A DNA stretch of 64,000 nucleotides. Origin: Euphorbia lathyris (Eukaryota; Streptophyta; Magnoliopsida; Malpighiales; Euphorbiaceae). The notes under the pieces were generated by a model, which worked only from the letters and a program-made list of their open reading frames with translations, was not told where the DNA came from and searched no databases. Location of the stretch: the NCBI RefSeq assembly GCF_963576675.1, contig NC_088919.1, positions 42,368,501-42,432,500 on the forward strand. The letters are read 5' to 3'. Position numbers and translations under genes: made by a program. This document shows, piece by piece, positions 3,606-32,446 of this stretch. Each line of letters opens with the position of its first letter. Position 1 is the first letter of the stretch.

Positions 3606-3610
3606 CCAAT
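3606..3610 (+). repeat. Target-site duplication CCAAT, left copy, of gypsy element E2
   Basis: CCAAT directly precedes the LTR start TGTTAGACG and recurs directly after the last LTR base at 44817-44821. An exact 5-bp duplication is the usual Ty3/gypsy footprint. It shows that the outer LTR pair belongs to one insertion event. Confidence 0.93.
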
Positions 3611-4182
3611 TGTTAGACGAGGTGCCGCGGCCTAATCTCCCGGGCGGACCGGGGGGTGGACAACCTCATGGCGACGTAAGCGGTGATTGGCGCCGAAAGC
3701 AACCAATCGTGGAATCAAGCTGCTCGGCAGGACCGGAGCTCGGAGATATGGAAGAGTCGCCACCCACGAATGGGAAAATGAACACCGATCCCTTGCAGGA
3801 GACCGGTGTGGGTTCGGGAAACTTAGGTACGAGCCGAGAAGGCTAGCTCCTTTCCGGAGAAAGGCTACTAGGCACCCCGACATCGCCCGGTTATGAACCA
3901 CCAGCCTCCTACTCAGCATGTTAGGCGATAACGGACTAATCGTACACTTCTTTAAGTTTAAAATTCATTTGAAACCTTTTCTTTCTCATTTTGGAAACCG
4001 TTTTGAGCATATATTATTGAAAAGCCACATTAGTAAAGAATCACCCTTTTACATCAATTTAATATACATACAAAGAGAGGGGGAAGAAAGAAGTGATTTA
4101 GTTACAACGTGATTTACATGTCGTGTTGCGAGTTAATTCTACGCTAACTTATTTCCCCAAAACGAATTTATTTACATGGTTC

Positions 4183-4440
4183 GCACCTTAATCGCCATTG
4201 GAACGATTTAGGTGCGTTTTAAAACCCCGTTTGATGAAGTTCACCCGACTCGCCGTTGGAACGACTCGAGCGCTTGAAAACGTTGAGATAAAAACCTTTA
4301 ATAAGAAAACGTGGTTAAACATACAAGTCAATTTTATTTTTATACAAATCCTTTAAGAAAACGATTCAAAACTTCATTATTTACAATGAAAACGATTTTA
4401 ATTACAATGTTCGCTTAATCCGTCGTTGGAACGGACTAAG
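4183..4440. other. Three stem-loops sharing a CGTTGGAACG loop (LTR R/U5)
   Basis: At 4183-4215, 4241-4272 and 4414-4440 a core close to CGCCGTTGGAACGA sits between imperfect inverted arms. The clearest are GCACCTTAATCG with CGATTTAGGTGC and CTTAATCCG with CGGACTAAG. The same three blocks occur in LTRs B, C and D. They lie downstream of the predicted transcription start, so they would be in the retrotransposon RNA. Function unknown. Confidence 0.55.
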
Positions 4441-5252
4441 GTTTTAAAACGTGGCGTTTTGAGAAACGATTTGAAATATTAAGAAAACTCTACTCATCTA
4501 CATTAGAAACCTCTAAAAATTCATTAGTTTAAATAATCAAGTTGAAAACTCTTTTTTGTGATTTATTTTCCTCTTTTTCCTTAATGGATTCTCTACTTGT
4601 TATAATTACAATAATAAACACATTTGAACCAAAACTCACTCCCAAGTAAAGCCCATTTGAAACATGGACTCCTAAATGCCCAAATAATAAAGAAAATAAT
4701 GTAGATATACATATATACATTTTAACCAAAAACCATGAAATAAAAGTTAATGAAAAGAGACTATATAATACATATATGAAAATACTAAACATAATACATT
4801 TATACTTTAAACATTTGAAAATAGTAAATAAAACTCTTAAATAAGAAAATAACATTTATCCCCAAATTAGTTTTATTTAATAATAATTAATATAACCCAA
4901 ATATCCCAAAACTATATGTATACATACCTAATGTAATTTTAAATGTCAAAAGTAATACATATTAACCCACTAATATTTACTAATTATCTCCAAAATGCTC
5001 AAGTAAGTAACATTTAAAATAAAATCCAATATAACCCGAATGAACAAAAAAAGAAAATATATACATACATATACTTATATTTAAAAATAGAATAAAAAAA
5101 TGATATACAAACATCCTAAATAATTATATATACTAAATGTCTAAAATAATTTGAAAATATATATTACATAACTATACATATATATATAAAGGATTAAAAG
5201 CTTAAAAGTTGAGAAAGAGGGACCAAAACAACATTTTTTACATTCTGGCAGA

Positions 5253-5279
5253 TTTACCGACGGAAAATCCGTCGGTAAA
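5253..5279. repeat. Perfect 12-bp inverted repeat in LTR A
   Basis: Arms TTTACCGACGGA and TCCGTCGGTAAA are separated by AAA. The repeat is unchanged in all four LTRs (also 9851-9877, 27955-27981, 43404-43430) although neighbouring AT-rich sequence has diverged. The ACCGACGG motif resembles subterminal repeats of plant CACTA transposons; whether it derives from one is unknown. Confidence 0.85.
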
Positions 5280-5943
5280 CAGCAATTAGTGACAGAAATG
5301 GCAAATTACAGCAGCACTCCCTTTATTTCCAGATTCATTCAAATGCTTTAAATTAAATCTAATTCAATCGTTTTGGATTTCCGAACTACCAAATATGGAT
5401 CATAGTCAATAACGAAGTTCCTAAAACGACGTTTTTTATTTTAAAACGTTATTTGAAAATTCTTTAGATTAAAACTTATAATTACAACGTTTTCAATACC
5501 CGAACTACCTTTTTATTGGATCACGGTTCGTATTAGGATATTAAAACGAGGTTTTTTATTTTAAGACAAACCGAATTTTATTCAACACGAGACGAAAATT
5601 AAATAAATACGCAAAATTAAATAAAAATAAATGAATAACTAAATAAATAAGAACTATAACATAAAAATAAATAAAGGAAAGAAATAAACTAAATAAAATA
5701 AAGCGAGTCTAGTCCTCGGATAATACCTCAAGTTCGGTATCTGACAGTCGAAGGCGATTGATTCCACGAGTCGTGATTTTCCGGTTTTTTTTGTGTTTTT
5801 TAGTAAAAATTTAACTTTGGAAAATTTGGATTTTTTTGGGAAAAATAATATTTTCTCCAAAAAATTGACTTTCTCTCTCTAAAAATGTTTAGAGTGAGAA
5901 AGCTCCAAAAAATCCTCTCCCAAATGCAGGGGGATCCGTGCCC

Positions 5944-5950
5944 TTTTATA
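5944..5950 (-). promoter_or_regulatory. TATA box of LTR A
   Basis: Minus-strand CCCTATAAAAGGG, placed about 670 bp into the LTR and just downstream of the GC palindrome array. LTRs B, C and D have TATATAA or TATAAAA at the same place (10556-10562, 28664-28670, 44096-44102). Transcription would start near 5915 and run left. Confidence 0.7.
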
Positions 5951-5971
5951 GGGAAACGGATCCCCGGAGAA

Positions 5972-6165
5972 ATGGGCGACGCCCGAGTAAAATCGGGCGT
6001 CGCCCAAGGGGGTTGGGCAGCCGCCCAAGGCAGGTTGGGCGGCCGCCCAATAATAGTTGGGCGGCCGCCCAACAATTGTTGGGCGAGCGCCCAATGCGAG
6101 GTTGGGCGCGCGCGCCCAACTGCCGTTGGGCGTTCGCCCGACGCGGTTGGGCGCTTGCCCAACGG
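5972..6165. repeat. GC-rich palindrome array in U3 of LTR A
   Basis: A run of short palindromes of the form TTGGGCG-NN-CGCCCAA at about 20-27 bp spacing, with spacer variants such as GGGCGGCCGCCC, GGGCGAGCGCCC and GGGCGCGCGCGCCC. It lies immediately upstream of the TATA box in the direction of LTR transcription. Unit number and spacers differ between the four LTRs. It keeps several ORFs open on both strands, which are artefacts of base composition. Confidence 0.85.
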
Positions 6166-6621
6166 CCGCCGAGGTACGTCTCGCGCCGTCGGGCGTGCAC
6201 GCCCCGCGGCCGTCGAGCTCGCGTTCCGTGCCGTCGGGTGTCCACGCGTCGCGACCGTCGAACGTGTGTTTCGCACCGCCGGGCGCATACGCCCTGTGGC
6301 CGACGAGTGCACGCTTCGTGCTGCCAAGCTCGTGCATTGCTTGGACGTCGAGCGCGTGCTATTCGTGGTTGGATGCGTGCGTCCGACGGACGTCGAGCGC
6401 GCGCTTTGCGTCATCGAGTGGGCGTGCGACTGTCGTCGAACGCGCGCCGGCTGCCGCTAAGCACTCGCACCATGCCGCTAAGCATTCGCGAGCCATCCGA
6501 TCAACAACAGCGATCCACCGTAACTTATTTATTTTATTTTTTTTCGAAACTTCCGGAATCAATCGCTTCAACCGTCTTGTTTTCAGGTTTTCGTCACAGG
6601 TCTTCCGACTCGGTGTCTACA

Positions 6622-8089: not shown

Positions 8090-8197
8090 ATGGATTTAGA
8101 TGAATGGGACGGCACGAGAGGCATGGACGAGGTTTACGTGAACCTAGATAGAGTGGACCTTTCCATGACCCTACGACGCATCTGAGCCGGACACGCT
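8090..8197 (+). pseudogene. First exon of the E2 PMD gene, cut by insertion of E1
   Basis: The start codon and the first 20-odd codons match exon 1 of the E1 copy (MDLDEWDGTRGMDEVYVNLD). A one-base deletion near 8158 then shifts the frame, so a TGA is reached at about 8183. The exon is interrupted at GGACACGCT (8189-8197), exactly where LTR B begins. The remaining exons of this gene are at 29774-31992, on the other side of E1. The last codons of exon 1 and its splice donor are missing from E2. Confidence 0.85.
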
Positions 8198-11183
8198 TGT
8201 TAGACGAGGTGCCGCGGCCTAATCTCCCGGGCAGACCGGGGGGTGGACAACCTCATGGCGACGTAAGCGGTGATTGGCGCCGAAAGCAACCAATCGTGGA
8301 ATCAAGCTGCTCGGCAGGACCGGAGCTCGGAGATATGGAAGAGTCGCCACCCACGAATGGGAAAATGAACACCGATCCCTTGCGGGAGACCGGTGTGGGT
8401 TCGGGAAACTTAGGTACGAGCCGAGAAGGCTAGCTCCTTTCCGGAGAAAGGCTACTAGGCACCCCGACATCGCCCGGTTATGAACCACCGGCCTCCTACT
8501 CAGCATGTTAGGCGATAACGGACTAATCGTATACTTCTTTAAGTTTAAAATTCATTTGAAACCCTTTTCTTTCTCTTTTTGGAAACCATTTTGAGCATAT
8601 GATATTGAAAAGCCACATCAGTAAAGAATCACCCATTTATGTTTATACATACACAGAGAGGGGGAAGAAAGAAGTGATTTATTTACAACCGTATTTAAAT
8701 GTTATGTTGTGTGTCTATTCTACATTAACTTATTTCCCCAAAACGATGTTTACATGGTTCGCACCTTAATCGCCGTTGGAACGATTTAGGTGCGTTTTAA
8801 AACCCCGTTTGATAAAGCTTACCCGAATCGCCGTTGGAACGACTCGAGTAATTGAAAACGTTAAAGTAAAAGCCTTTTAATAAGAAAACGTGGTTAAACA
8901 TACAAGTCAATTTTATTTTGTACAAATTCATTAAGAAAGCGATTCAAAATCTCCATTATTAAAAAAAACGATTTTGATCACAATGTTCGCTTAATCCGTC
9001 GTTGGAACGGACTAAGGTTTTAAAACGTGGTGTTTTGAAGACGATTTGAAATATCAACCAAAATGACTCTATTTATCTACATTAGAGATCTAAGAAAGCT
9101 CATTAGCTTAAATAATTTTAATTGAAAACTCTCTTTTTGTGACTTATTTTCTCCACTTATTTAATGGACTCTCTAACTATTATAATTACATCAATAAACA
9201 TATTTAGGCCCAAAAATTAATTTTTCCAAGTGAAGCCCATTTGAAACATGGACTCATAAATGGCCAAAAGAGATAAAGAAAATAATATAAATATATATCT
9301 ACACATTTTAACCCAAAAGACATAAAATAAGAGTAAAAGAAAGTATACTATCCAATACATATATAAGAAAGAGTAATGAAAATAATATATTTATACTTTA
9401 AATATATGAAAATAGTAGATGAAATTCATAAATAAGAGAATAGCATTTATCATTCAAGATAACTCTATTTGTCAATAATTAACATAACCCAAATATACTC
9501 CAAAACTATATATATATACAGAACTAATATAATCTTAATGTCAAAAAGACTATATGTTTATTCCCTAATATCTATTAATTGTCTCACAAAATACCCAAGT
9601 AAATAACATTTAAAATAGATTTTAATGTGACTTAAATAAATAATGATAAAAAAGAGAAAATAATACATACATTTATAAAAATAAAATGGAACACCACTCT
9701 TCTAAAATAATTATATATGTTAAAATTCTAAAACAATTTGAAAATCATATATTACATAATTATATATATATATATATATATATACTAAGGATTAAAAGTC
9801 TAAAAGTTAAGAAAAGGGGACCGAAATGGCATTGTTTACATTTTGGCAGATTTACCGACGGAAAATCCGTCGGTAAACAGCCTTTAGTGACAGAATTGGC
9901 AAATTACAGCAGCACTCCAACATTTTCCAGATTTGTTCAAAAGCATTAAATTAAATCTAATTCAATCGTTTTGGACTTCCGAACTACCAAAGATGGATCA
10001 TAGTCGAAAACGGAAGTTCCTAAAACGATGTTTTTATTTTAAAACGTTATTTGGAAACCTCTTTTAAATAAAAAACTTATAATTACAACATTTTCGATAC
10101 CCGAACTACCTTTTTATCGGATCATGGTTCGTATTGGGATATCCAAAACGAGGTTTTTATTTTAAAATAAAACCGAACTTTATTTAACACGAAACGAAAA
10201 TTAAATAAATACGCTAACTAAATAAAACGTGACAAAATAAATAAATGACTAAAGGAATAAAAACTATAAAATAAAAAAATAAATAGAAGGAGAGAAATAA
10301 ATTAAATAAAATAAAGAGTCTAGTCCTCGGATAATACCTTTGATTCGGTATCTCACAGTCGAAGCCGATTGATTCCACGAACCGCGAACTCCCGATTTTA
10401 ATAAAAATTTAGTAAAAATTGAACTTAGGAAATTTGGAATTTTTGAGAAAAAAATATTTTTCTCAAAAAAATCCACTCTCTCTCTAAAAATGTTTAGAGT
10501 GAGAAAGTTTTTCCCCCAAAAAAAAGGCCTCCACTTCACCTTGGGATCCGTGCCCTTATATAGGGAAACGGATCCCGGAACAATGGGCGACGCCCAAAAA
10601 AAATTGGGCGTCGCCCATTATGGTTGGGCGGCCGCCCAACAATGTTGGGCGATCGCCCAACTTTCGTTGGGCGATCGCCCAACGGCATTGGGCGAGCGCC
10701 CAACCCTCGTCGGGCGTCCGCCCGACGCATTGGGCGTTCACCCGACGTGGTTGGGTGCCCGCCCGACGACCCTCGGGGCGTGCCCCGAGCCGTCGGACGT
10801 GTGCACTCCGTGGCCGCCGAGCGCGCGTTCCGCGCAGCTAGACGCTCGCACGTCGCGGCCGCCGAACGCGCGCCTCGTGCTGCCAGGCACGTGTGCTCAA
10901 CGGCCCACGAGGGTGCGCACCGCCAGCGGTCCCAGGCATTGCTCGGGCGTCGAGAGCGTGCCACTCGCGGTGCGTCCGACGGACGCCGCGCGCACGTCTC
11001 GAGCCGTCAAGCGGGCGTTCGACCATCGTCGTCTACGTGCGGGATGCCGTTGCATGCCCGCGCCGTGCCATTAATTTTCCTCAGCTTATTATTCTTTATA
11101 TATTTTTCAAAACTTCCGGAATCAATCGCTTCGACCATCTTGTTTCAGGTTTTCGTCACAGGTCCTCCGACTCGGTGTCTACA
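8198..11183 (-). repeat. LTR B: 3' LTR of E1
   Basis: A complete 2986-bp LTR, TG at 8198 and CA at 11182-11183. TATA box at minus 10556-10562, GC palindrome array about 10582-10765, inverted repeat 9851-9877. It shares with LTR C the bases AGCCTTTAGTGACAGAATTG and TTTTCCAGATTTGTTC that separate the inner pair from A and D. LTRs B and C differ at only a few positions in their first 500 bp, apart from AT-repeat length changes. Confidence 0.93.
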
Positions 11184-11371
11184 GTTGCCCCTACTTTTCT
11201 ATTTTGACAGTGATGTGTGTGGTTCGAAAACGTTTTTGCTAACGTGACACATGCAATGTAAAACATATGAAAGTAAAAGACACGTAACGAGTAGGAGGAA
11301 TCATACCTGACCTTTGCGTTGCGTGCTCCGGCGTTGCTCTCTGACTGCATCAGACTCTACTTCGGGCTGCA

Positions 11372-12508
11372 CCCTAGTTCACGACCGCGGGGATAATGGC
11401 TAAATAGCTACCCTAGTTTATGATCGCGGGGATAATGGCTAAACAGCTACCCTATTTCAAGATTGCGGGGATGATGGCTAAACAGCTACCCTATTTCAAG
11501 ATTGCGGGGATAATGGCTAAACAGCTACCCTGATTTACGACTGTGGGGATAATGGCTAAACAGCTACCTTATTTCAAGATTGCGGGGATAATGGCTAAAC
11601 AGCTACCCTATTTCAAGATCACGGGGATAATGGCTAAACAGCTACCCTGATTTACGACTGTGGGGATAATGGCTAAACAGCTACCCCATTTCAAGATTGC
11701 GGGGATAATGGCTAAACAGCTACCCTATTTCAAGATTGCGGGGATAATGGCTAAACAACTACCCCGATTTACGACTGTGGGGATAATGGCTACACAGCTA
11801 TCCTATTTCAAGATTGCGGGGATAATGGCTAAACAGCTACCCTATTTCAAGATCACGGGGATAATGGCTAAACAGCTATCCTGATTTACGACTGTGGGGA
11901 TAATGGCTAAACAGCTACCCTATTTCAAGATTGCAGGGATAATGGCTAAATAGCTACCCTGGTTTACGACTGCAGGGATAATGGCTAAACAGCTACCCCA
12001 TTTCAAGATTGCGGGGATAATGGCTAAACAGCTACCCTATTTCAAGATTACGGGGATAATGGCTAAACAGCTACCCCATTTCAAGATTGCGGGGATAATG
12101 GCTAAACAGCTACCCTATTTCAAGATTGCGGGGATAATGGCTAAACAGCTACCCTGATTTACGACTGTGGGGATAATGGCTACACAGCTATCCTATTTCA
12201 AGATTGCGGGGATAATGGCTAAACAGCTACCCTATTTCAAGATCACGGGGATAATGGCTAAACAGCTACCCTGATTTACGACTGTGGGGATAATGGCTAA
12301 ACAGCTACCCTATTTCAAGATTGCAGGTATAATGGCTAAATAGCTACCCTGGTTTACGACTGCGGGGATAATGGCTAAACAGCTACCCCATTTCAAGATT
12401 GCGGGGATAATGGCTAAACAGCTACCCTATTTCAAGATTACGGGGATAATGGCTAAACAGCTACCCCATTTCAAGATTGCGGGGATAATGGCTAAACAGC
12501 TACCCTAG
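11372..12508. repeat. 39-bp tandem repeats, family a (about 29 copies), E1
   Basis: Units read GGGGATAATGGCTAAACAGC followed by TACCCTATTTCAAGATTGC, 39 bp, encoding a 13-residue peptide repeat of MAKQLPYFKIAGI type. Two sub-types alternate (TATTTCAAGATTGC and GATTTACGACTGT), producing a higher-order pattern. E2 has no copies of this family. Together with the neighbouring family b it forms the variable 3' region of the element. Confidence 0.92.
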
Positions 12509-12527
12509 TCTACGATCTTAGGTAAAT

Positions 12528-12975
12528 ATGGCTCAAAAGCAACTCCGGTCTGCGACCACGAGTCAGATGACTCAACAGCAACTCCGATCTGCGACCGTGA
12601 GTCAGATGGCTCAAAAGCAACTCCGGTCTGCGACCGTGAGTCAGATGGCTCAAAAGCAACTCCGGTCTGCGACCGTGAGTCAGATGGCTCAAAAGCAACT
12701 CCGGTCTGCGACCGAGAGTCAAATGGCTCAAAAGCAACTCCGGTCTGCGACCGTGAGTCAAATGGCTAAAAAGCAACTCCGGTCTGCGACCGTGAGTCAG
12801 ATGGCTCAAAAGCAACTCCGGTCTGCGACCGTGAGTCAAATGGCTAAAAAGCAACTCTGGTCTGCGACCGTGAGTCAAATGGCTAAAAAGCAACTTCGGT
12901 CTGCGACCGAGAGTCAAATGGCTCAAAAGCAACTCCGGTCTGCGACCATGAGTCAAATGGCTAAAAAGCAGGGGC
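12528..12975. repeat. 39-bp tandem repeats, family b (about 11 copies), E1
   Basis: Same family as the E2 array at 6864-7650 (ATGGCTCAAAAGCAACTC... CTGCGACCGTGAGTCAG). Some units read ATGGCTAAAAAGCAACTC, intermediate towards family a, and both families share period and the ATGGCT..AAA.CA.CT framework. This suggests family a arose from family b by divergence and amplification. Confidence 0.9.
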
Positions 12976-13313
12976 TGTTTCTGGATTTTCTTATCACACT
13001 GTTGTCTGTATTTTCTCACTGGAGCTATCATCTCGAAGATTCGATGAGCCCACGTCTTAGTCCTAAATGACATAGACACTGATTGTTTTTATGTTGACTG
13101 TCGTCTGTATTTTGACTGGTGTCACTGTTCTGTAAAAATTAGCTGTTGTCTGGAATTAATGTTTTGACAATGTTAGTCACTGTCTGGGAGAAATGCAGGC
13201 TGAAACGGACTGCAAATCGGAGGTCTGTGCACCTGGTAATTAATTATTTACTTTTTACCTTTATGTCAAATCGTACTTTTTTCACTATTTACGGGAATGC
13301 CATTCCCTTTTCC

Positions 13314-13320
13314 TATATAA
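13314..13320 (+). promoter_or_regulatory. TATA box of the antisense PMD gene (E1 copy)
   Basis: TATATAA, 80 bp before the ATG at 13400, followed by CCCCACACCTTCTCTCTCC, a pyrimidine patch typical of plant core promoters. It points rightward, against the direction of retrotransposon transcription, so the gene appears to have its own promoter. Confidence 0.72.
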
Positions 13321-13399
13321 GGTGGTGGGGTTTCATTTCAACCCCACACCTTCTCTCTCCTCTTTCTCTCACTAGACTTCAATTTGGATTATTCTCGGG

Positions 13400-16300
13400 A
13401 TGGATTTAGACGAATGGGATGGCACCAGAGGCATGGACGAGGTTTATGTGAACCTGGATAGAGTGGATACCTTCCACGACCCTACGACACACTTGAGCAG
13501 GACACGCTGCAACGAGGTAAGTGGTTTCTCACTTTTATTTGATTTGAACTCTAGGCTTTAACATTCCTATACGAACATGATTTGCATGCTAACTCTTAGG
13601 CTGCCTTAGAGGACTTTAGCTAGAAAACGTGAATTCCTTTATTTACACGTAACACATGTTTGTTTTTGTAAGAATGCGCGCTATATGCGTGTGGATAGTA
13701 CACTACGAATTTATGCATGTTAACAGTAAAAACGATGTGAATAGTAAAAACGTGAATAGTAAAAACTTAGCTAATGCACGTGAATAGTAAAAACGTGAAT
13801 AGTGCACGTGAATAGTGCACGTGAATAGTGACAACGTGAATAGTAAAAACTTAGCTAACGCACGTGAATAGTGACAACGTGTATAGTAAAAACTTAGCTA
13901 ATGCACGTGAATAGTAAAAACTTAGCTAATGCACGTGAATAGTAAAAACGTGAATAGTGCACGTGAATAGTAAAAACGTGAATAGTAAAAACTTAGCTAA
14001 TGCACGTGAATAGTAGAACCTAATCTATGCTCCTCGTCACCGCAGACGAGGGTGGATTAAAGAATTGACTAAACCTTACGTGAATGACCCTACAGGAGAG
14101 ATTTTTACAGAAAATTGGTCCTAACTGACCGGATGTCTCTAGGTTAGATAATGAAAGAATACCCGTTCTTGGCGCGTTCTTATCAAATGCATGCTTTAGG
14201 AGCCGTATTTAAATTTTCTTGTCTTGTTCTTTTTAGTTCATTGAGATTTCGGGGACCACCGCCGAGATTCACTCATGGTACGATAGGCTAGGCGCCGCGG
14301 CGAGAGCCCGCGTGCACGAGTTGGGCTTCGAGCCCTTTATTGCAGCGCTGCCCCGCACCAACGGGGTATGCGATCCTTTTGGCCTACGGGCCTTATGCGA
14401 GCGGTGGGTTGACTCGACCCACACCTTCCACCTTTCCTTTGGGGAGATGACCATCTCGCCTCGAGATTTTTCGCTGTTGACAGGATTGCGAGGGAGCAAC
14501 ACTCTCGTCCCTTTCCACTTTGGTATGATGCGACCACGGGTCGACCTTGCTAGGCTTGCTACCTTGATTGGACCGGGAGTTCGTCTATGCGCCAAGTCTA
14601 CTCCGGCGAAGTTTGTCTCTACCGCGAGCCTCTTGAGTAGACGTGATTTCTGCGAGACTGACGCTACCGACCTGGCGGTTCGTAGTTTTTTAGTATATGC
14701 GCTGAGTGAGACGATCTTCCGCACGAAGGGCGGGAAGGTACACGCAGGTCTCATTCAGGCACTTAGCGATCTGGATGCAGCGGCTTCTTATGATTGGGCA
14801 GGGGCAGGCTTAGCCTTTCTTTACAAGTTCTTGGATCTGACTTGCCGGAAGCGCAAGGACTTCGGCGGTTATACCTTTGCCCTGCTGGTACGTGACGCCT
14901 TCTTGACTTATCCGTCTTGTCTTTTTCGCATTTTTCACGCTCCTAGTCCTCATTTTTACCGCAGGTGTGGGCGTACGAGAGACACATCCTTCCCAGCCGG
15001 TCTCGATCTCGACCGAGAGTACCGAGGCCGCCCTTCATGACCCGATGGAGGGATTTTGACTTGAGCGCCGAGAGGAGTCGGACAGTGTCGCGGCTTCTGG
15101 ATTGGATCGACTCGCTGACCCTAGGACAGGTAGATTTTGCCTAATCATGCTAGATTTTTGTTTGAGTCCCTCTGACTTTCTCTTTGTGCATTTTTCTTTA
15201 GATTAAGTTCAGGTGGGATGATCTTGACTTCGGCCCTGATTATGCATACGCATCGATGATCCAGGAGCAGCAGTGCGTGCTCACCGGCCCTTGTGTGCGG
15301 GCGTGGTATTTGGGAGATCGAGGCATCACCGGAATGAGTGATGTTCACTGGACGCCGGGGGAGATTCCCGTTTCCATGTTTGCTGTGCGGACTCTGCCCT
15401 TATCGACCATTCGTCGAGATCTGACCCGTCGTTTTGTCGGTAGAGTAGTCTGGGTTCACGCCGGGGGCCGCGAGCCTTATTTGTCTACTTTACTGAGCGC
15501 GAGGGATGCCCCGGCGGCAGCGATGGAGGTAGATCCGGTAGCGGACGTGTTTTCAAGAGAGGCGGTCGAGGCCGTCTTTGGTCAGGCGGAGGTTCCGGTA
15601 AGTGATTCCGCCCTCTTTTCATTTTATTCATGATATACTCGGAGGTTTTATTGTGTGTGTTTTTTTTTTTTTTTTTTTTTTGCCTTTTTTGCAGGAGGGA
15701 TGCTGGCGGAGTGCCCACCTATCAGATTTTTTCGATGGCACTCGGGCTCAAACACCGGTGTGCGAGCAGCCCTATTTTATCGGCGAGTCATCTAGTGCAG
15801 CTCGACCGGAGGGGTCGTCCATAGGCGTGCCTATACCAGACTATGGGAGAGATTATGCTACGATCTGCTATGACGAGTCTGGGGCACCTTACGCGGGATT
15901 TGAGGCGGCCCCTCCTATCTTCTTCTCGAGGGTCCCGTTTGATCCCTCGGACGCTTCTCTAACCACGAGAGAGACTTGTACTGATTACGTAGGGCTGTCT
16001 GGTTATCTCCGAGACCGCCTCAGCTTGCGCTGCACCGATCACCTAGTATGTATCATCATTGTACTTTAGTGTAGTGAAATGTATGCATGTATGTATGATT
16101 TATGTTTTTGCCTATCCTACCTTTTATCTGTGTTTTTTTCTTTTTCCATAGAGTGATCTGCATGCCCATGAGCGGAGACAGAGCGAGCTAGTGCGGGAGG
16201 CTGATGCCCGAGTTGGTCACGTGTATCAAGAGAGGAACGACCACTGGTCGAGGATGATGCGACGGGAGACTGAGGGTCGCCTTGCCGTCGAGGAGAGGGC

Positions 16301-16490
16301 GCGTGATGAGTCGATCAGCCGCCTTGCTGCAGAGGAGAGAGCATGAGCTGCTGATGGCAGAGCACGGGTTTCTGATGAGAGAGCGCGAGTTTCTGATGAG
16401 AGAGCGCGTGCTGCCGAGGAGGCACTATCTGCGGAGCGGGCATCTCACCTGAGAGATTTTGAGAACTATTGGGACTTCCCTCCGTATTAG
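13400..16490 (+). CDS. Spliced antisense gene with a plant mobile domain (PMD), E1 copy
   Basis: Six exons, all introns phase 0 and GT-AG: 13400-13516, 14237-14887, 14965-15129, 15202-15597, 15695-16045, 16152-16490. The full frame is about 672 codons. Exon 2 matches the plant mobile domain (PF10536 type): TFHLSFGEMTISPRDFSLLTGL, then LSETIFRTKGGKVH and YDWAGAGLAFLYKFLD. The exon 2-3 junction joins FGGYTFALL to VWAYERHILP, rebuilding the family's GG...LL.WAWER block, good evidence that splicing is real. Exon 6 is arginine/glutamate-rich, probably coiled coil. PMD proteins are known in plants (MAIL1/MAIN) and in transposons; the role here is unknown. A TGA at 16344-16346 (E2 has CGA, a CpG-type change) removes the last 48 codons. 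It converges on pol, which ends at 16974. Confidence 0.82.
13735..14015. repeat. GAATAGT / CACGTG repeat array in intron 1 of the PMD gene
   Basis: Irregular units GTGAATAGTAAAAACGTG, TTAGCTAATGCACGTGAATA and GTGCACGTGAATAGT. CACGTG, the plant G-box core, occurs eight times in about 230 bp (first at 13777-13782, last near 14003). A related array with five CACGTG cores lies in the same intron of E2 at 29270-29610. Whether factors bind here is not shown. Confidence 0.85.
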
Positions 16491-16973
16491 GCTCGTTATG
16501 TATTGCTTTGTAGCTTTCATTGTTGCTTTGTAGCTTTTATTAGAGTTTCCCCGATGTATAGCTGATGTATAGGGAATGGGGTGGATAGTGGGTAGGCTTT
16601 TTTTTTGTGAAAAGTAGGATAGGAAATGTATAACTCGTGATTCATATTACCATGCATTCAGTAGATTATGATGATTCCAATCATTCTCGTCAAATATATT
16701 CATGCCTTTATTTATTTACAAACAACAGAAATACTTAGTCTCTTATACATTGTTTTTGTAATTGCTCAAGTTATAACTATTGTTACCAGGATCCGCCTTT
16801 CGGTTTTCGGATCCCGGCGATTTTTCTCCTCTCCTTTTACTATCCCGGAATTTTTAAATGAGTGCCCTTTCGGGTTTTCACCCATTGGGATTTCCCTTAT
16901 TGTTGCATAGGTCGCCCTTTGCGGGTTTTCAACCTATCGGGAATTTTTCTTTTTTTTTCCTTTTTTTTTTTTT
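16491..16973. other. Convergent 3' ends of the PMD gene and pol, with three stem-loops
   Basis: Between the PMD stop (16490) and the pol stop (16974) lie three stem-loops with a shared core close to CCCTTTCGGGTTTTC: 16789-16814 (arms GGATCCG/CGGATCC), 16857-16886 (AATGAGTG/CACCCATT) and 16907-16938 (ATAGGT/ACCTAT). E2 has the same three at 32271-32420. They would be in the 3' parts of both transcripts. A role in RNA 3' ends is only a guess from position. Confidence 0.6.
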
Positions 16974-19919
16974 TTACGAAAAGTATTTCTTAAGCCTATC
17001 CAGATTGGTAGGTTCGGAGAATTTCATGCCGTCTATTGTGGTTAACTTCACCGCTCCTTTGCTTAGTATCTTCTTTACGACGAATGGTCCTTCCCAGTTA
17101 GGCCTGAACTTCCCCCTCGGGTCGGTGTGCGTCACACGGATCTGTTTCAGCACCAAATCTCCTTCTTTGATAGGGCTGGTCTTGACTTTTTTATTGAAAT
17201 CCCGAGCCATCCTTCTTTGATATAACTGTACATGGTAAAGGGCTTCCATCCTTTTCTCATCAACTAAAGCCAACTGCTCACATCGCCTCTTCACCCATTC
17301 CGTTTCGAGAATTTCTGCTTCTACTGCGATTCTCAACGATCGCTTTTCGATCTCAATCGGCAGGATTGCTTCTGTTCCGTATACCAAGGAGAATGGCGTT
17401 GCCCCAGTCGAGGTTCTGACTGTCGTGCGATAAGCCCACAATGCGAGTGGGAGGTGCTCATGCCAGTTCCGATGTGATTCCACCGTCTTTACGAGGATCC
17501 TTTTAAGGTTCTTATTAGCTGCTTCTACTGCCCCATTAGCCTGTGGACGGTACGGAGAAGACCTGTGATGTTCAATGCCATATTCTCGGAAAAGATTCCT
17601 TACTTCCCCCTGAAACTGGACCCCGTTATCCGTGATCATGTGATGAGGCACTCCGAACCTGGTGATCAAGTGTTTTTCAATGAACTTTCTCATCTGCTTG
17701 GATCCCAGTTTGCTAAACGACTCTGCTTCTACCCACTTGGTGAAATAATCGATGGCGACCGCAATAAACTTATGTCCATTTGAAGCATTAGGCCTTACTT
17801 CACCAATGATGTCAATGCCCCAGGCAGCGAATGGCCAAATAGGTGCTAGCACATGTAGTTCCGTGGCCGAAAGATGACTGCAGTCGCCGTGGATTTGACA
17901 ATCGTGACATTTCTTCGCATACTCGTTACAATCTCTTTCCATGGTGAGCCAATAGAAGCCTTGCCTAATAATTTTCTTAGCTAGTACTGCTCCTCCTATA
18001 TGGGCTCCACAAATTCCCGAATGTACTGATTCCATCGCCTCGCGGGCTTCCCCCGCATCCAAGCATCTTAGTTGTAATCCGTCAATGTGCCTTTTGTAAA
18101 GTAAGTCGTTATGGATGACGAACTGACGAGCTAGCCTTCTAATCACAGCTTGATCCCTAGGTTCTGACTCTGCCGGATATGTTCCATCTTTCATGAAGTT
18201 CACGATATCGAAATACCACAGTTTTTCATCTGCCCCTAACAACATTACGTCTTCGTGGCACGGTTTGTGAGATCTTCTCAATACCAATGGTTTCGAAGCA
18301 AGGTTCCGGGGGTTGTCCCAAACTGACACCAAAGTGGCCAAGGCATCTGCGGCCTGATTCTGAGCTCGAGGAATGTGATAGAAGCGACATTCTTGGAATC
18401 TCAATGCCAACCCTTCTAGCTGATCTAGATACGGAAGTAGCCTTTCTTCTCTCACTTCCCAGTTTCCTTGTGCCTGTTCGATGATCAACTTGGAGTCACC
18501 CCAAATTTCGACATATGACGCTCCCAGTGCTGCTAATGACTCCAAACCATAAATGCATGCTTCGTATTCGGCCATATTGTTGGTAAGGGGGAAGGATAAC
18601 TTCTTCGCCATCGGGATTCTTTCTCCTTTCGGGGAGATAAGTAGTACTCCTACTCCGGCTCCATTCGAATTAACTACTCCGTCGAAGAACATTTTCCACG
18701 GTATAACTTCGATTGCATTCAAATGTTCATCGGGGAAATCATAGCTTATCTCTTCTTCTTCTGTATTCAGGGGTTGATTAGCCAAAAATTCTGCCACGGC
18801 TCTTCCTTTGATAACCTTCTTTGTCACATATTCAATGTCAAACTCGGACAAAAGCAACAACCATCTGGCTAACTTCCCCGTCAAGGATGGAGTTCGGTAT
18901 AGATACTTTACGGGGTCCATCCGAGAAATAATGATCACTTTATACGATTGGAAATAGTGCCGCAGTTTCTTCGTCAACCACACCACTGCCACACATGTCT
19001 TTTCGATCATGTTGTATTTGAGCTCATACTCTAGGAACTTCTTACTCAAATGATACACCGCGTGTTCCACACCGGTGTCTCCCTCTTGAGCTAACATTGC
19101 TCCGATAGATCGCTCCTCAATTGCTACATAGAGGAGAAGTGGCTTTCCCAGTTTAGGCGGTCTCAACACTGGCGGATTAGAAAAGTAACTTCGGACACTC
19201 TCCAACGCCTGTTGACACTTATCATTCCAAACGACGGGTTGGTCTTTCCTTAACAACTTAAAGATTGGCTCGCAGATTGTGGTGAGTCTTGCTATGAACC
19301 GACTGATATACTGAACTTGCCCCAGAAACCCCCTCACTTCCTTCTCATTTCTCGGCGCTGGCATTTCCTTTATAGCCTTCACTTTATCGGGATCCACCTC
19401 AATTCCCTTATTTCCGATTACATAGCCTAAGATTTTCCCCGACGAAACGCCGAAAAAGCACTTCTTCGGGTTTAACCTTAGCTTGAATTCTGCAATTCGG
19501 GCCAAAAACTTCTCGAGGGCGGCAAAATGCCCTTCTCTTGTCTCTGATTTGACCATCATATCATCCACGTAGACTTCTACCTCCTTGTGTATCATGTCAT
19601 GGAACAGGGCAGTGGCCATTCGCTGGTAGGTTGCCCCGGCATTTTTCAAACCAAACGGCATCACTCTGTAACAGTATGTTCCCCACTCAGTTGTGAACGA
19701 GGTTTTCGCTTTGTGCTTTTCGGCCATCTGAACTTGCATGTAGCCCATGAAACCATCCACATTTGTGTGCAAGACGCTTGATGCTTCACTGTCGATCAAT
19801 ACATCGATATGAGGCAAGGCGAACTCATCCTTGGGGCATGCCTTGTTAAGATCTCTGTAATCCACGCACATCTCACTTTGCCATCCTTTTTCGCAATGGG
19901 CACTACATTTGCGACCCAA
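16974..19919 (-). CDS. Gypsy pol of E1: RT, RNase H, second RNase H, integrase
   Basis: The frame resumes at about residue 17 (MCVDYRDLNKACPK); the first codons are off-frame because of the deletion near 19870. Reverse transcriptase shows VDGF (54-57) and the catalytic YVDD (117-120). The connected RNase H is degenerate: the first catalytic Asp is Ala (LLLYVAIEERSIG, about 266). A second, complete RNase H follows at 405-530, with D413, E451, D475 and D525 (FFDG, EYEA, GDSK, QAADAL). Integrase has the HHCC finger (H633, H640, C671, C674) and DDE residues D703, D764 and E799; no chromodomain follows. A second RNase H marks the Tat group. With the 19796-20758 frame this would give one pol product. 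The stop TAA is at 16974-16976. Confidence 0.93.
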   Translation of the reverse strand: MGRKCSAHCEKGWQSEMCVDYRDLNKACPKDEFALPHIDVLIDSEASSVLHTNVDGFMGYMQVQMAEKHKAKTSFTTEWGTYCYRVMPFGLKNAGATYQRMATALFHDMIHKEVEVYVDDMMVKSETREGHFAALEKFLARIAEFKLRLNPKKCFFGVSSGKILGYVIGNKGIEVDPDKVKAIKEMPAPRNEKEVRGFLGQVQYISRFIARLTTICEPIFKLLRKDQPVVWNDKCQQALESVRSYFSNPPVLRPPKLGKPLLLYVAIEERSIGAMLAQEGDTGVEHAVYHLSKKFLEYELKYNMIEKTCVAVVWLTKKLRHYFQSYKVIIISRMDPVKYLYRTPSLTGKLARWLLLLSEFDIEYVTKKVIKGRAVAEFLANQPLNTEEEEISYDFPDEHLNAIEVIPWKMFFDGVVNSNGAGVGVLLISPKGERIPMAKKLSFPLTNNMAEYEACIYGLESLAALGASYVEIWGDSKLIIEQAQGNWEVREERLLPYLDQLEGLALRFQECRFYHIPRAQNQAADALATLVSVWDNPRNLASKPLVLRRSHKPCHEDVMLLGADEKLWYFDIVNFMKDGTYPAESEPRDQAVIRRLARQFVIHNDLLYKRHIDGLQLRCLDAGEAREAMESVHSGICGAHIGGAVLAKKIIRQGFYWLTMERDCNEYAKKCHDCQIHGDCSHLSATELHVLAPIWPFAAWGIDIIGEVRPNASNGHKFIAVAIDYFTKWVEAESFSKLGSKQMRKFIEKHLITRFGVPHHMITDNGVQFQGEVRNLFREYGIEHHRSSPYRPQANGAVEAANKNLKRILVKTVESHRNWHEHLPLALWAYRTTVRTSTGATPFSLVYGTEAILPIEIEKRSLRIAVEAEILETEWVKRRCEQLALVDEKRMEALYHVQLYQRRMARDFNKKVKTSPIKEGDLVLKQIRVTHTDPRGKFRPNWEGPFVVKKILSKGAVKLTTIDGMKFSEPTNLDRLKKYFS

Positions 19920-20758
19920 GGGGGATAGTCGATCACTTCGATGAATCCTGCTTCTAACTGCTTCTTCACCTCCTCTCTGATCTTATCTGCCCATTCGGGT
20001 CTCATACGTCGGAGCTTCTGCTTTACAGGCCTCGCCTCGGGATATGTTGGAATACGGTGAGTTACGATTGATTGATCGATTCCAGGCATGTCTTCGTATG
20101 TCCACGCGAATACAATTTCGTATTTTTTAATTATTCTCTCAAATTCTTTTCTCTCTTCAATAGTTAATTCTTGAGCAATTTGTATAAGTTTAGGATTTTC
20201 ATCCGTACCAAGATTGAAAGTTGACATTTCTATTGTATTGATTTCAAATGTAGGCATGTTATATGAATGAGAATGCATGGAATGATCATGATCAACATCA
20301 AGCAAGTAAGCAAAACCAGAATTCATTTCATTGATAGCGTGGGTGATTACATCATCGGACTCAAACAAAGCAGTAATACAATTTTCATCCTCAATATCTT
20401 CGGACTTCTCATATACTCTCGAGGTACTAGGCTCAATTTCAGCTCCTGTAGCCGCTTTAATGGTAATGACCTGCTCCTCGGCATTTGAATCCAGCATCAT
20501 GATCTCCTCGACAAAGCAGCTTGCCTTTCCTTTGCCCCAGTCGGCGACATCATTGAAGATTTCAAACCCTGGCAGAATCTTTCCTTCCGTGCTAGTCCAC
20601 GACTCGGACGTTCCCGAATATGGCCTTCCATGTCCCTCGCTTACAAAATGCTTCCTCAAGCCTATTTTTCCTTCTGCACTCATGTTGGATGGACTCCCCT
20701 GCTCATATCCCAAACCCCTCCGGGTTTTCTGACTCTTAAAATCCGGAAACTCCGACAA
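19796..20758 (-). CDS. Protease-RT linker and RT N-terminus of E1 (between stop and frameshift)
   Basis: This piece is in frame with gag-protease upstream but separated by the TAA at 20762-20764. It carries the tail of a glycine-rich G-patch-like segment (RRGLGYEQG), a variable acidic linker (100-230), then the RT entry region: EFERIIKKYEIVFAWTYEDM, HRIPTYPEARPVKQKLRRM and QLEAGFIEVI. One T is missing near 19870 (GCACATCTCAC here, GCACATTCTCAC in E2). The last 25 residues are therefore off-frame and RT continues in the 16974-19919 frame. No intron sites are needed to connect protease and RT, unlike Ogre elements, in which an intron is reported there. Confidence 0.85.
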   Translation of the reverse strand: MSEFPDFKSQKTRRGLGYEQGSPSNMSAEGKIGLRKHFVSEGHGRPYSGTSESWTSTEGKILPGFEIFNDVADWGKGKASCFVEEIMMLDSNAEEQVITIKAATGAEIEPSTSRVYEKSEDIEDENCITALFESDDVITHAINEMNSGFAYLLDVDHDHSMHSHSYNMPTFEINTIEMSTFNLGTDENPKLIQIAQELTIEERKEFERIIKKYEIVFAWTYEDMPGIDQSIVTHRIPTYPEARPVKQKLRRMRPEWADKIREEVKKQLEAGFIEVIDYPPWVANVVPIAKKDGKVRCAWITEILTRHAPRMSSPCLISMY

Positions 20759-20761: not shown

Positions 20762-23700
20762 TTAATGGTGTGCTCCTAAGCCCATTCCGGGGATGAAACC
20801 TCCTTTCATCATCTTCACCACATCGGTGGTCATGCTCGACTCGTAAATCCCAGAGACTTGGAATCCGGAGAAAAGTTGAGGCTCAATTCCCAATGCTGCC
20901 ACCGAGCTCAGTTTTTCAGCTCTAATTGTAACTATCTCCTCCCCGAAGGGGAACTTAATCATTTGGTGGAGCGTGGAGGGCACACCTCCCAGCTTGTGGA
21001 ACCAAGGGCGTCCCAACAACACAGCAAAAGTTACTGGGATATCCAACACTGTGAACTCAGTTTCTTCCTCGTGCGGCCCCACTTTCAACTTGGCCTTGAA
21101 AACTCCTTCAATATGCCTACGGCTGTCATCGTATGCTCTGATCACTGTTTCAGAAGCTGTCAAATCTCCTCTCTCCACTCCTAACTTGGACAAGAGCTTC
21201 AAAGGACAAACATTAATGGCCGATCCATCATCGACCATAACACAGCTAGTCTTCTTCCCGTTAATTTCTGCTCGGATATACAATGGCTTGTTGTGAGCCT
21301 TCCCCTCTTCTGGGAGATCCTCGTTGGTAAACGTAATCTCAGTCTTCTTTCGGGCCATTATTGCCCCTACTAGCGCTGCCGGCTCAGTGTCGGTGGAGAT
21401 CACCAAATTCTGCAACTCCTTCATCAGGTTCTCACGATGGTACTTAGAATGGCATAAAACTTCCCAGACCGTAGACTTAGCTTGCGTCTTCTTCAACTGT
21501 TCAAGAACTTGGTCGTCGGGCTTAGGAGCCGAACCTTCTCCAATCTCAGTCTCTACCATTGGTGCCTTTCCCTCGGCCACACGACCTGATCTCGTCATCA
21601 CCGCAACTTTCGGCTCGTCATCCGACTCGTCCCAAATGTTGATAGGGATCTTCCGATTGGCATCCTCCTCGTCCGAGGAACTCGCCCAGATGTCTACGAC
21701 CATTAAATCCATGAGGTGAGGAACACTCGGATTCAGGAAAAAGGGATCCGCTGATCCATACAAGGCCCAACCTATCAACTCATCATAGTCACGGAGGGAC
21801 ACTCTACTCATCCTTCTCGCGGCCAATGGAATAGCGCCTCGTTGTATGCACATAAGTTGCACCTTATCGCTCATTGCCTCATTACACTGCTCATAACGGT
21901 GCCTCCACCTTCTAGCATAATCTACAAAATGTTCCTCGGGGAATTGCCTAATCCTGTCCAGATCATCTAGGGATCCCGTCCATGGAATGTACATTTCATA
22001 TCTCGTCACAAAGGCATTTCGGAGCGGTATCCAATGACACATCTCTTCCTCTGACAGACCCTGATGCCACAATAAGGCTTCACCCATCAAGGTTTCCGGA
22101 AAATGTTCATGCAACTCACACTGTGGGAATCTAGCGTTATACATATGATCGCGGAATATCCTCGCATGCTCTACAGGATCCCGATATCCACCATACCTAG
22201 GCATTGCTAACACCGCATCAGGTGTTTGGTAAGACGGGGAATCAGGAGTTTGCTCTGCTAGCATCCATACCGTATATTCCTTGATAAATCTCTTCGTCAT
22301 AGCTGCCCAATCGGTCTTAACATACATCGGCAGCGACATGTACCACATCAGCGGTTCACCCATCAATGAATTACAAAACAAGCTAGTGATCTCTTCCTCT
22401 TTGAAACTCAAGGCTGTCATAGCTGACAAATAGAAGTGAAGGTGCTCCATAGGGTCCTTATTGCCGTTATTCTTGCTGACCCTTGGCAATGGACGCTTGA
22501 TGGGTCCAATCTGCATTGCAAAGTGCTCTGCGGTTCTATCCTCAGCTCTCTGATACTTTTCAAGAAACAAATCCGACAACCGATCCCAATCGTGCTTGCA
22601 AGAGTCGGGCAATGAATGGAACCATTGCAAAGGCTCACCTACCCGTGAATGGTGGAACCACTGAGCAATTTCCTCTACCCCGAAGGATTCAATAAACATG
22701 TCGTGCATATACTCACGCAAGTGCACTTCGGGATCCATTCCTCCACTGAACAAACCTAAATTAGGCACGATAGTCCGAGACGACCCTTCTCCGGTCTCTT
22801 CGGCACTATCCTCGTCATATGGTGCTCCACCATCTGATCCTTCCTCCATTAGTTCGTCCTCTTGTTCCTCACCCAAGAAGGACACATACAAACCATTTCC
22901 CACATTGCTTCTTTCGACGGAGTCCAACAACTCCTCTACATCTTCCTCAAAAGATTCCATCACTACAGTTTCCGTCAAACCAACTCCGATCACGCTCACC
23001 CTATGATTAGGCAATGGATTGCGCCTAACGGAAGGGTTTGCTGACGAAGGATCAGCTATCTTCTTCTCCTCAATCAAATCTTGGATTTCGTATTTCAGCC
23101 TCTCGCAATTCTCAATCGTATGTCCATAACTGTTGTGGAATTCACAATACCCTCTAGCCTGAATCTGCGGAGTAGGTTGAGCTTTGTTATACGGGGTAAG
23201 GGCTTTCAACAACCCCTTCTTCTGCAGACGTTCAAAAACCTTTGCGTAAGTCTGATCGAATTTGGCGAACCGCCTCTTTTCGATAGCATTAAGATCAACC
23301 ACTTTCACTGTCGCAGATTCCGCATTCGCGCTAGGCCCTCCGGCACTATATCCAGACTTCGTCCACTTGGTATAAGCTTTCTTCGGCTCCCCATCGCCTT
23401 CGACAGTCAAGGCACAACTATACATCTGATTGAAATCTGTGAACGGCATATATCTCAACTCATTCTTAATGTACGGCAACGTATTGCCAATCACCATTCG
23501 GATCTGATCTTGCTCAAGCGGCTTCTGTTTCATGACCGCGGCCTTAGCCCTCCATCTCTTCACAAAGTCTGAAAGGGATTCCCCAGTCTGCTGCTTAGTG
23601 CTCTCTAACTCTTTCAAAGTGACTTCCAACATGGTGTTAAAACTATACTGAGCGATGAATGACTTCGCTAACTCCTTCCAATCCTTCTTTGTCACCATTG

Positions 23701-24367
23701 GCAGCGCATGGAACCATGTGAGGGAAGCCCCCTCCAGGTAAGTGTTAAACAGCCCCAAGACTTGATCCTCGGTCAGGATCGTGTGCTTCATTACCGCAAC
23801 GTACTGATTCATGTGAGCGGTGGGATCTCCAGTTCCATCGAACTTTTTCATGTCAGGGAGCCGGAATTTCAGAGGCAAAGCTGTTGCTGTCAAGCAATTC
23901 TTCAAGTTATAGAAATCCTGACTTCCGGAGCTTCCTCCGCGCAAGTCCTGCACTTCCTGTGTGATGTGTTGCCTCCACTCCTCTTCCTTAGCTTTCTCCT
24001 TCTCTAACTGTTTTCGGATATAATCCTGATAATCCTCCTCATTCCCAAAGCGAGGGCCATCGTTCACCTCATTCTCAGCACGCTTACTACCACTCTTGTT
24101 GTCCTTCAGTGCTAACTCAGCTAGCTGGGCCAAGATTGCGGCCAGCTGGTCGTTGATATTGTTCACAGAATTCTCCAATTCAGCCACTTTCTCGTCGGTC
24201 GCAGACATACTGATGGAAGATTGAGTATACCCAGATGAAGATGATTCAGAAGCCACAACTGCTGATTCTGAACTGTCTACTCGTAGCTGATCAAACTGTC
24301 TGACAAGCCGATCACTCTCGCGAAACCACAACCGCTTAATGATGACGTCTGCGCGAACGGTATCCAT
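20762..24367 (-). CDS. Gag with four tandem gag-like units plus aspartic protease, E1
   Basis: 1201 codons from ATG at 24367. A coiled-coil stretch (55-90) and basic/acidic linker come first. Four gag-like units follow, each with DP..H and L.GE.L.W (variants) then W and F...Y: residues 178-245, 541-608, 633-700 and 725-792. Units 1 and 4 also have the second half (FVKRWRAK at 268, FVDYARRWRHRY at 814). A zinc-knuckle variant C408-x2-H411-x4-H416-x4-C421 lies between units 1 and 2, with His where the second Cys is usual. The protease has VDDGSAIN (1045-1052) and LLGRPW (1117-1122). At the end is a G-patch-like GGFIPGMGLGAHH. A TAA replaces Gln (CAG in E2) after residue 1201; the frame otherwise continues. 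Single-gag Tat proteins are much shorter. Confidence 0.92.
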   Translation of the reverse strand: MDTVRADVIIKRLWFRESDRLVRQFDQLRVDSSESAVVASESSSSGYTQSSISMSATDEKVAELENSVNNINDQLAAILAQLAELALKDNKSGSKRAENEVNDGPRFGNEEDYQDYIRKQLEKEKAKEEEWRQHITQEVQDLRGGSSGSQDFYNLKNCLTATALPLKFRLPDMKKFDGTGDPTAHMNQYVAVMKHTILTEDQVLGLFNTYLEGASLTWFHALPMVTKKDWKELAKSFIAQYSFNTMLEVTLKELESTKQQTGESLSDFVKRWRAKAAVMKQKPLEQDQIRMVIGNTLPYIKNELRYMPFTDFNQMYSCALTVEGDGEPKKAYTKWTKSGYSAGGPSANAESATVKVVDLNAIEKRRFAKFDQTYAKVFERLQKKGLLKALTPYNKAQPTPQIQARGYCEFHNSYGHTIENCERLKYEIQDLIEEKKIADPSSANPSVRRNPLPNHRVSVIGVGLTETVVMESFEEDVEELLDSVERSNVGNGLYVSFLGEEQEDELMEEGSDGGAPYDEDSAEETGEGSSRTIVPNLGLFSGGMDPEVHLREYMHDMFIESFGVEEIAQWFHHSRVGEPLQWFHSLPDSCKHDWDRLSDLFLEKYQRAEDRTAEHFAMQIGPIKRPLPRVSKNNGNKDPMEHLHFYLSAMTALSFKEEEITSLFCNSLMGEPLMWYMSLPMYVKTDWAAMTKRFIKEYTVWMLAEQTPDSPSYQTPDAVLAMPRYGGYRDPVEHARIFRDHMYNARFPQCELHEHFPETLMGEALLWHQGLSEEEMCHWIPLRNAFVTRYEMYIPWTGSLDDLDRIRQFPEEHFVDYARRWRHRYEQCNEAMSDKVQLMCIQRGAIPLAARRMSRVSLRDYDELIGWALYGSADPFFLNPSVPHLMDLMVVDIWASSSDEEDANRKIPINIWDESDDEPKVAVMTRSGRVAEGKAPMVETEIGEGSAPKPDDQVLEQLKKTQAKSTVWEVLCHSKYHRENLMKELQNLVISTDTEPAALVGAIMARKKTEITFTNEDLPEEGKAHNKPLYIRAEINGKKTSCVMVDDGSAINVCPLKLLSKLGVERGDLTASETVIRAYDDSRRHIEGVFKAKLKVGPHEEETEFTVLDIPVTFAVLLGRPWFHKLGGVPSTLHQMIKFPFGEEIVTIRAEKLSSVAALGIEPQLFSGFQVSGIYESSMTTDVVKMMKGGFIPGMGLGAHH

Positions 24368-26281
24368 TAGTATGTATGCATGATTTTATATGCATGATTC
24401 GTGGTGTGTGCGTTTATTTATTTACGATTATAAGATAAGAAGAACAAACGTTAGTTCTATTTACATGTATCACAACATCTCTCTTCCACCCTTATTCCTC
24501 CACACACTCGTTGGTCCAGGTCTCTTTCCTAGGATTTTGGTTTTTTTGGCTCACATTGCGGTCCAGGGGACGCGTGATGCCGTCGATTATTGCGGGAAAG
24601 TAAATCATTCATCAGACAATACAGTTCGTTTTGACGTATCAACGTTTAGTGACTAAAAAAAATCGACCAAGTCGGATTGTCCTTTCGGAATAACTCGTCT
24701 TTCATCCTTTCGTGAGACGCATTAATTCGGGTTTTGACTCCCTTTGAGCGCATCTCAGTTTTTAGACGTGGTTCGAGTTATTCTTCTAGTCAAATCGTTC
24801 TTTATTGTCAATGACTCGTTCCCTTTTGTTCGCGTGGGTTCGTGTCTCGATTTTTGGATTACAACGGGATCTTTTGGATCTATCGAGAGACGTAACCACG
24901 TGTTTATTTAGTGATGGAATCACTTTTGGATTTTATTTTAGGGAACGGACTCATCGCGTAACGCGTTTGTTTTTAGCGTCGAGGATCCGTTTGCTCATTT
25001 TGCTACGTGAAAAGACGGCGAGTCTTATTTTGAGCGCATGATAATCTTTCGGCTAATTACAACTCTTTGTTCCTCCCAATCCACGGGATATATCATCTCA
25101 GTGTGGTTATAGAAAATCAACGTTTCGTTGAATCGCGTGTTTATTTGAAGCGAGGGTATCACCGTTTTCCTTCCTTTAGGCGCGAATTAAGCAAACACGT
25201 ACATCGGGCCATATTTCTTGCAGTTTTGGTAACGGTCGAAATGATCGAGTCGTTAGTCAAAACTCGCAGTCTCGTCCATCTGGCGCAATTATATGGCCTG
25301 GCTTAATTCGGCTTTCGAGATTTTAAACGGGGTATACACTCGTTCGAGGCACGTATTCAACGGTATTGGCTTATTTTCTTTAACTACTCGCGGGATTAAC
25401 ATATATCGTAGATTCAGAATGATTTTGGTCGATTAGTTCATTTTTCTTTTCTTAGTCACCTTTTGCGGACACGTCCATTTCTCTTAAGAATGACACCAGG
25501 CATAACGTAAAAGCTCGTCTTTTATTCGGAAGGGACGGGCTACTTGTGCGAAACTTTTCACGTTACAACAAGGTTGTTCGAAACAGAAATGTTCTTCGTT
25601 TTCGTTTCGTCGTGATCTCGTTTTATCCCAATTTATTTAAAGAATGTGAATAACGGCTACCGTTAATATAGTCTTTTGTATCGAAATGTAACTATCCTTA
25701 ACACCGAACCGATTAATACTAATACGTGCTTACGTCATAACGTATTTCCTGAACACGTGCCTTCATCGGGACACCGAAAGGGACAAGGCGGGTCGCACAT
25801 GTTCATTCATATGAGATGACTAAGTCGTCTTTAGTTCAAATCGTTTCGATGTTTTAGGGTAATTAGTATGTCGATTCAAGAGTATATATTAACGCATCGT
25901 CTCATTTTCTTTACATAATTTAGGATTAGACACGTATCATGGTGGTTTGAAAACACGAACTGATTCATTTATCACATCAAAAATAGTAACGGGTAATCCT
26001 ATGGAAACTTCTAAGGCTACTATATGCTGACACGGCTGACCGCGGGACCTCACAGGACCGCACAAATTCGCCCCTAACGAATGGATGGGGACCCTCTGGC
26101 GCCTTACTGTAAGGGGGAACTTACGCTAGCCTCTTTCGAGCGACGAATGGACTCTCACTAGAGGTTTCGCGGAAATTACCCAAAGGGTTTGCAATAATGC
26201 TCGTGAATGCATACGAAAAGAAGTAACACGATCCGTCCCCGTTAAGGGCTTAGTGCATGCCTTCTGGAATCAAATTTCTCG
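24368..26281 (-). other. Untranslated leader of E1 between PBS and gag
   Basis: About 1.9 kb with no ORF of useful length on the minus strand. Ogre-type relatives carry an extra ORF1 here; I see none. The segment is well conserved with the E2 leader (39825-41726), including blocks such as TTACGTCATAACGTATTTCC. Short plus-strand ORFs here look like chance. Confidence 0.75.
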
Positions 26282-32420: not shown

Positions 32421-32446
32421 CGGGAATTTTTCTTTCTTTTTTTTTT

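Follow-up and report, generated by a model that had tools for sequence, protein, structure and literature searches.

A six-exon gene encoding a plant mobile domain (PMD) lies antisense to gag-pol in two nested retrotransposons of Euphorbia lathyris. We consider it reasonably likely that this is a selected accessory gene of a Tat/Ogre-type Ty3/gypsy element, with a TATA promoter of its own and an ancestor in common with the MAIN/MAIL genes of the host. The window analysed comprises 64,000 nucleotides (NC_088919.1, positions 42368501-42432500), and copies were searched for in the 1.02-Gb genome. The features are listed in Table 1.

Table 1. Features of the outer element (A) and the inner element (B), in window coordinates
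Feature	Position	Strand	Remark
Outer element A	3611-44816		CCAAT on either side
Left LTR of A	3611-6621	-	CCAAT at 3606-3610 just before
Right LTR of A	41749-44816	-	CCAAT at 44817-44821 just after
Exon 1 of A's PMD gene	8090-8197	+	interrupted by B; 1-nt gap relative to the B copy
Inner element B	8198 to about 29268		inserted within exon 1 of A's PMD gene
Left (3') LTR of B	8198-11183	-	
39-bp tandem repeats	11371-13061		between 3' LTR and PMD gene
TATA box	13314-13321	+	TATATAAG in the window; TATATAAGG in 29 of 30 copies
Exon 1	13400-13516	+	ATG to donor of intron 1; ATG in 30 of 30 copies
Exon 2	14237-14887	+	first part of PMD; PF10536 E=9.6e-21 alone
Exon 3	14965-15129	+	PMD
Exon 4	15202-15597	+	end of PMD
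Exon 5	15695-16045	+	
Exon 6	16152-16490	+	coiled-coil-like C-terminus; in-frame TGA at 16344-16346 in the B copy
Pol ORF of B	16974-19982	-	RT, RNase H, additional RNase H, integrase
Gag-domain ORF of B	20762-24385	-	
Right (5') LTR of B	26304-29268	-	end missing at junction with A
Exons 2-6 of A's PMD gene	29774-31991	+	29774-30424, 30502-30666, 30743-31138, 31210-31560, 31674-31991

The two elements are related, one is nested in the other, and gag-pol of both is on the minus strand. The divergence between the LTRs of each element amounts to K = 0.087 (0.0869) for A and 0.021 (0.0213) for B, which at a substitution rate of 1.3e-8 per site per year corresponds to rough ages of about 3.3 and 0.8 million years, respectively. 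At the right junction of B the end of its LTR was lost together with a piece of exon 1 and intron 1 of A, and a flanking duplication looked for at the B/A junctions was not found. The domain order in pol (RT, RNase H, additional RNase H, integrase) is the same in both elements, the match to the integrase core of A falling under the Pfam cut-off. RVT_3 thus sits between RT_RNaseH and Integrase_H2C2 in both, the arrangement that marks the Ogre clade of the Tat lineage, and the assignment to gypsy made in the earlier note was borne out by this Tat-type order. A primer binding site starting with TGG adjoins the 5' LTR and may be complementary to tRNA-Arg, the match expected in the Ogre clade. Gag and RT are encoded by separate ORFs in both copies, as either an intron between gag-pro and RT, the Ogre arrangement, or decay could have brought about. 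According to the available text of PMC6317226, the RVT_3-type order is also found in Retand elements.

The PMD gene of B occupies plus-strand positions 13400-16490. The array of 39-bp repeats lies on one side of it and pol, oriented tail-to-tail with it, on the other. Its exons measure 117, 651, 165, 396, 351 and 339 nt, all multiples of three, and all five introns are GT-AG introns in phase 0, as previously described from the sequence; the TATA box, the pyrimidine patch, the ATG at 13400 and every junction quoted in the earlier note were likewise present. The profile search that the note had proposed returned a match of the joined frame to the Pfam PMD family PF10536 with E=4.2e-27 (95.7 bits, against a curated cut-off of 34.9). 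The block that the junction of exons 2 and 3 was said to rebuild exists, and reads GGYTFALL|VWAYER rather than ending in WAWER. The exon borders described as identical in the two elements are so for exons 2 to 5, in length and position, and for the splice site that starts exon 6; exon 6 itself differs by an indel, and exon 1 of A is truncated with a 1-nt gap. What the earlier note had missed is that neither frame is intact. Because of the TGA at 16344 in exon 6, the frame of the B copy is not open to 16490, and A's copy is broken by an in-frame stop in exon 4 and a 20-nt gap in exon 6. The promoter is putative, on the evidence of the conserved TATA box; the B copy is presumably transcribed and spliced.

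The gene recurs throughout the family. With exon 2 as query, 3438 candidates were obtained and the 150 best-scoring ones were examined, a list biased to good matches; 147 of these 150 had no internal stop in exon 2. In a set of 30 copies chosen as the best exon 2 matches, including that of B, the splice sites were kept in 292 of 300 cases (donor GT 147/150, acceptor AG 145/150), the ATG in all 30 and the TATA box in 29. None of the 20 intron-end bases checked showed a variant common to at least two of the 30 copies. The survey of other family members suggested in the earlier note found the gene present, and its exon borders, start codon and TATA box are conserved across this set of 30. Exons 1 to 5 were open in only 9 of 31 rows (the 30 copies plus A). 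The junction between gene tail and pol tail was spanned by all 40 scored DNA matches to 16300-17100 (the best 40 of 2167 candidates, B included), and pol was detected downstream of the PMD gene in one other copy (L044). The stretch from gene end to pol end (16491-16974 versus 31992-32446) is 94.9% identical between A and B, though dS of the neighbouring genes is 0.59-0.78; this may reflect termination signals in common or a patch of gene conversion.

Among the NCBI proteins of Euphorbia lathyris, P0001 covers each of the five junctions; it differs in its N-terminus and by two 4-residue gaps at other places. When the element's gene served as query in two protein searches, the candidates scored yielded 10 and 12 proteins, all from Euphorbia lathyris. 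An AlphaFold2 model of P0001 built from 37 sequences had a mean pLDDT of 42.6 and predicts a long helix for the exon 6 region, with moderate confidence there only; a sequence search of solved structures gave nothing usable (best E=0.16). Three further NCBI models (P0003, P0008 and P0010) fuse a gag-like domain to PMD exons, some isoforms lacking exon 2: P0008 joins exon 1 straight to exon 3, and P0010 joins the gag-like part to exon 3. These models may represent chimeric transcripts or annotation errors.

The relation to host genes emerged from the intron positions. The host gene model at locus L006 matches a part of the NCBI MAIN-LIKE 2 sequence of E. lathyris exactly (100% identity over 560 residues; 95% to the E. 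peplus protein). It resembles the element's gene in its PMD and in the exon borders around it, and differs in lying outside any element. Its intron after GCLTLLQ occupies exactly the alignment column of intron 2 of the element, and those before the PMD and after DSLQPSD lie three columns off introns 1 and 3, so that the latter two coincide only within alignment uncertainty; all are in phase 0, and the alignment stops after exon 4. A second host-like locus (L007) has the same three introns. Elsewhere in the genome the pattern varies: L008, L041 and L042 have the third intron and one other, not the second; L039 and L040 have the third only; and L043, L001, L002, L004 and L005 have none in the aligned part. 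The coinciding introns make it probable that the PMD genes of gypsy and host go back to one intron-bearing ancestor.

In a tree of the element genes, MAIN-LIKE 2 and the other PMD loci, the element genes are united by a branch of length 3.26 and set off from MAIN-LIKE 2 (97/98) and the other loci, in a topology with several weak deep forks and a long-branch warning. From this very long branch, distant from those of the host, we conclude that the relation goes back far, and on this tree a recent capture was rejected. MAIN-LIKE 2 proteins are 21-25% identical to P0001, and the element's gene, placed inside an element and apart from MAIN-LIKE 2 in the tree, does not count among the MAIN/MAIL host genes.

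Nor was a capture peculiar to this family supported. Besides the long branch, the accessible parts of two papers speak against it, in which a PMD is reported for 57% of Ogre elements (PMC6317226) and gypsy-encoded PMDs form clades of their own, PMD-A1/A2 (PMC5418596). The elements resemble the Ogre clade of Tat Ty3/gypsy as described in the former in the additional RNase H between RNase H and integrase, the long LTRs, the tandem repeats and the PMD extra gene; that survey, however, was based on predicted single ORFs with a minimum length of 250 codons, whereas the gene here has six exons, the largest of 217 codons. By description rather than by sequence, it also resembles PMD-A1/A2, carried by gypsy elements and apart from MAIN/MAIL in the tree (PMC5418596). 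Antisense genes of Tat elements, with their own promoter and with functions given as unknown, have been described as well (PMC7264820, as far as available). Grande gene23 and the Retand antisense genes are likewise antisense and between pol and 3' LTR, with an own promoter reported for that of Grande (PMC7264820, PMC11963269); unlike the gene studied here, they have another or no known domain, and introns go unmentioned in the accessible part of PMC11963269. Element and gene are therefore of a kind already described. New here are the six-exon build, the intron coincidence with a host gene and the signs of upkeep by selection. The main text of PMC5418596, in its available part, contains no mention of introns, exons or splicing, nor of intron sharing with MAIN/MAIL; in the literature searched, beyond whose reach most subscription papers lay, no report was found of introns common to gypsy PMD genes and MAIN/MAIL genes.

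The direction of the exchange can be read in two ways. Cellular genes are as a rule rich in introns, which is not expected of genes in retroelements; this argues against a domestication of the host MAIN/MAIL genes from a retrotransposon gene, introns included. Domestication is favoured by the authors of PMC5418596 and presumed in PMC8616336, as far as their available text goes, and we regard it as a serious possibility, at somewhat less than even chances. With similar reserve, we tentatively propose that an ancestor of the retrotransposons took up a cellular, intron-bearing gene of the MAIN/MAIL kind as antisense genomic DNA and that the orientation of this gene has shielded its introns since; the element would then carry a still-selected, host-structured relative of retroelement-silencing genes. 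The accessible text of PMC5418596 describes it as 'fully open' whether MAIN/MAIL derive from gypsy or gypsy PMDs from MAIN/MAIL, and the introns that coincide between the gypsy PMD gene and MAIN-LIKE 2 offer a direct test of MAIN/MAIL ancestry.

Independent parallel gain of the coinciding introns, or an accident of alignment, would be compatible with an exact match for intron 2 only, introns 1 and 3 being three columns off, and with the other intron patterns in other PMD repeats of the genome. Under uniform placement, however, one exact hit among three has a chance of about 0.009, and three phase-matched hits within three codons one near 2e-6 by a rough formula; we consider this explanation unlikely and retain the common intron-bearing ancestor.

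The earlier proposal that the gene is kept as a passenger found support in the substitution pattern. Between A and B, exons 2 to 5 gave dS 0.777, dN 0.062 and omega 0.080, equal to that of pol (dS 0.594, dN 0.050, omega 0.085), and changes at codon positions 1, 2 and 3 numbered 51, 33 and 176. Variants were further divided into shared (in at least two copies) and private ones (in a single copy), in N/S counts that ignore the tree. For the exons not used as query, N/S in the 30 loci was 0.187 for shared and 0.798 for private variants; when the nine frameshifted loci were left out, the remaining 21 gave 0.149 and 0.684 (Fisher p=6.1e-10). Read in the two wrong frames, the same 21 loci gave shared-variant values of 1.44 and 1.81 and private-variant values of 0.83 and 0.82. 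In exon 2, the search query, the values were 0.131 and 0.211. Selection acting as long as copies transpose, followed by decay and with some broken copies spreading too, would explain this most simply. Six stop variants were shared in the 30 copies and five in the 21-locus set; being common to at least two copies, they suggest that copies with a broken gene may go on spreading, possibly with help in trans.

The shared stop variants, the stops or indels in both window copies and the 22 of 31 rows not open in exons 1 to 5 would also suit a relic, an old PMD gene fragment passively carried with no present role. Against this stand the shared-variant N/S of 0.15-0.19 and the omega of 0.080, equal to pol, and the nearly neutral private variants place the decay after insertion rather than before it, which makes a relic quite improbable. 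Least probable of all is that the antisense transcript itself regulates the element by pairing with genomic RNA, the protein having little weight: such a role has been put forward for antisense RNAs of LTR elements (PMC7264820, in its accessible part) and A and B are 94.9% identical in the 3' flank of the gene and 91.6% in the promoter, but the constraint is codon-specific, third positions varying most and shared-variant N/S exceeding 1 in the wrong frames.

We therefore return to a selected accessory gene, between pol and the 3' LTR and on the strand opposite gag-pol. In genomic RNA its splice signals would be reversed, and reverse transcription would copy the introns unspliced; as the packaged RNA is the other strand, judging from the way LTR elements are copied, an antisense gene can keep its introns. 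The PMD gene illustrates a simple route by which a retroelement may retain introns. Selection would favour the protein in copies that later transpose, and the contrast between shared and private variants indicates that the gene matters for the spreading of the element. The protein may act in the nucleus as a mimic or competitor of the host's MAIN-MAIL1-PP7L silencing module, a role suggested by the distant homology (21-25% identity) and by published proposals. MAIN, MAIL1 and PP7L take part in silencing (PMC7156037), and counter-silencing by an element-encoded PMD has already been proposed (PMC8616336, PMC5418596), all as far as the available text of these papers goes. The element would thus carry a relative of plant genes that help to silence such elements.

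Some minor observations concern the window and the genome at large. Neither a tRNA scan nor an Rfam scan of the 64-kb window gave a match. Five intron-poor PMD genes were found (L001-L005), four of them within about 0.2 Mb on one contig (C2). A match to a G-patch domain (E=5.4e-6) was seen in the protease-region ORF of A (35531-37438). Over their first 400 bases the LTRs (8198-8597 and the other LTR copies) are 97-98% identical between A and B, most of the remainder being 70-88% identical, and short palindromic GC-rich repeats (GTTGGGCG..CGCCCAAC) occur within the LTRs at 5800-6400, 10602-10747 and 44209-44358.
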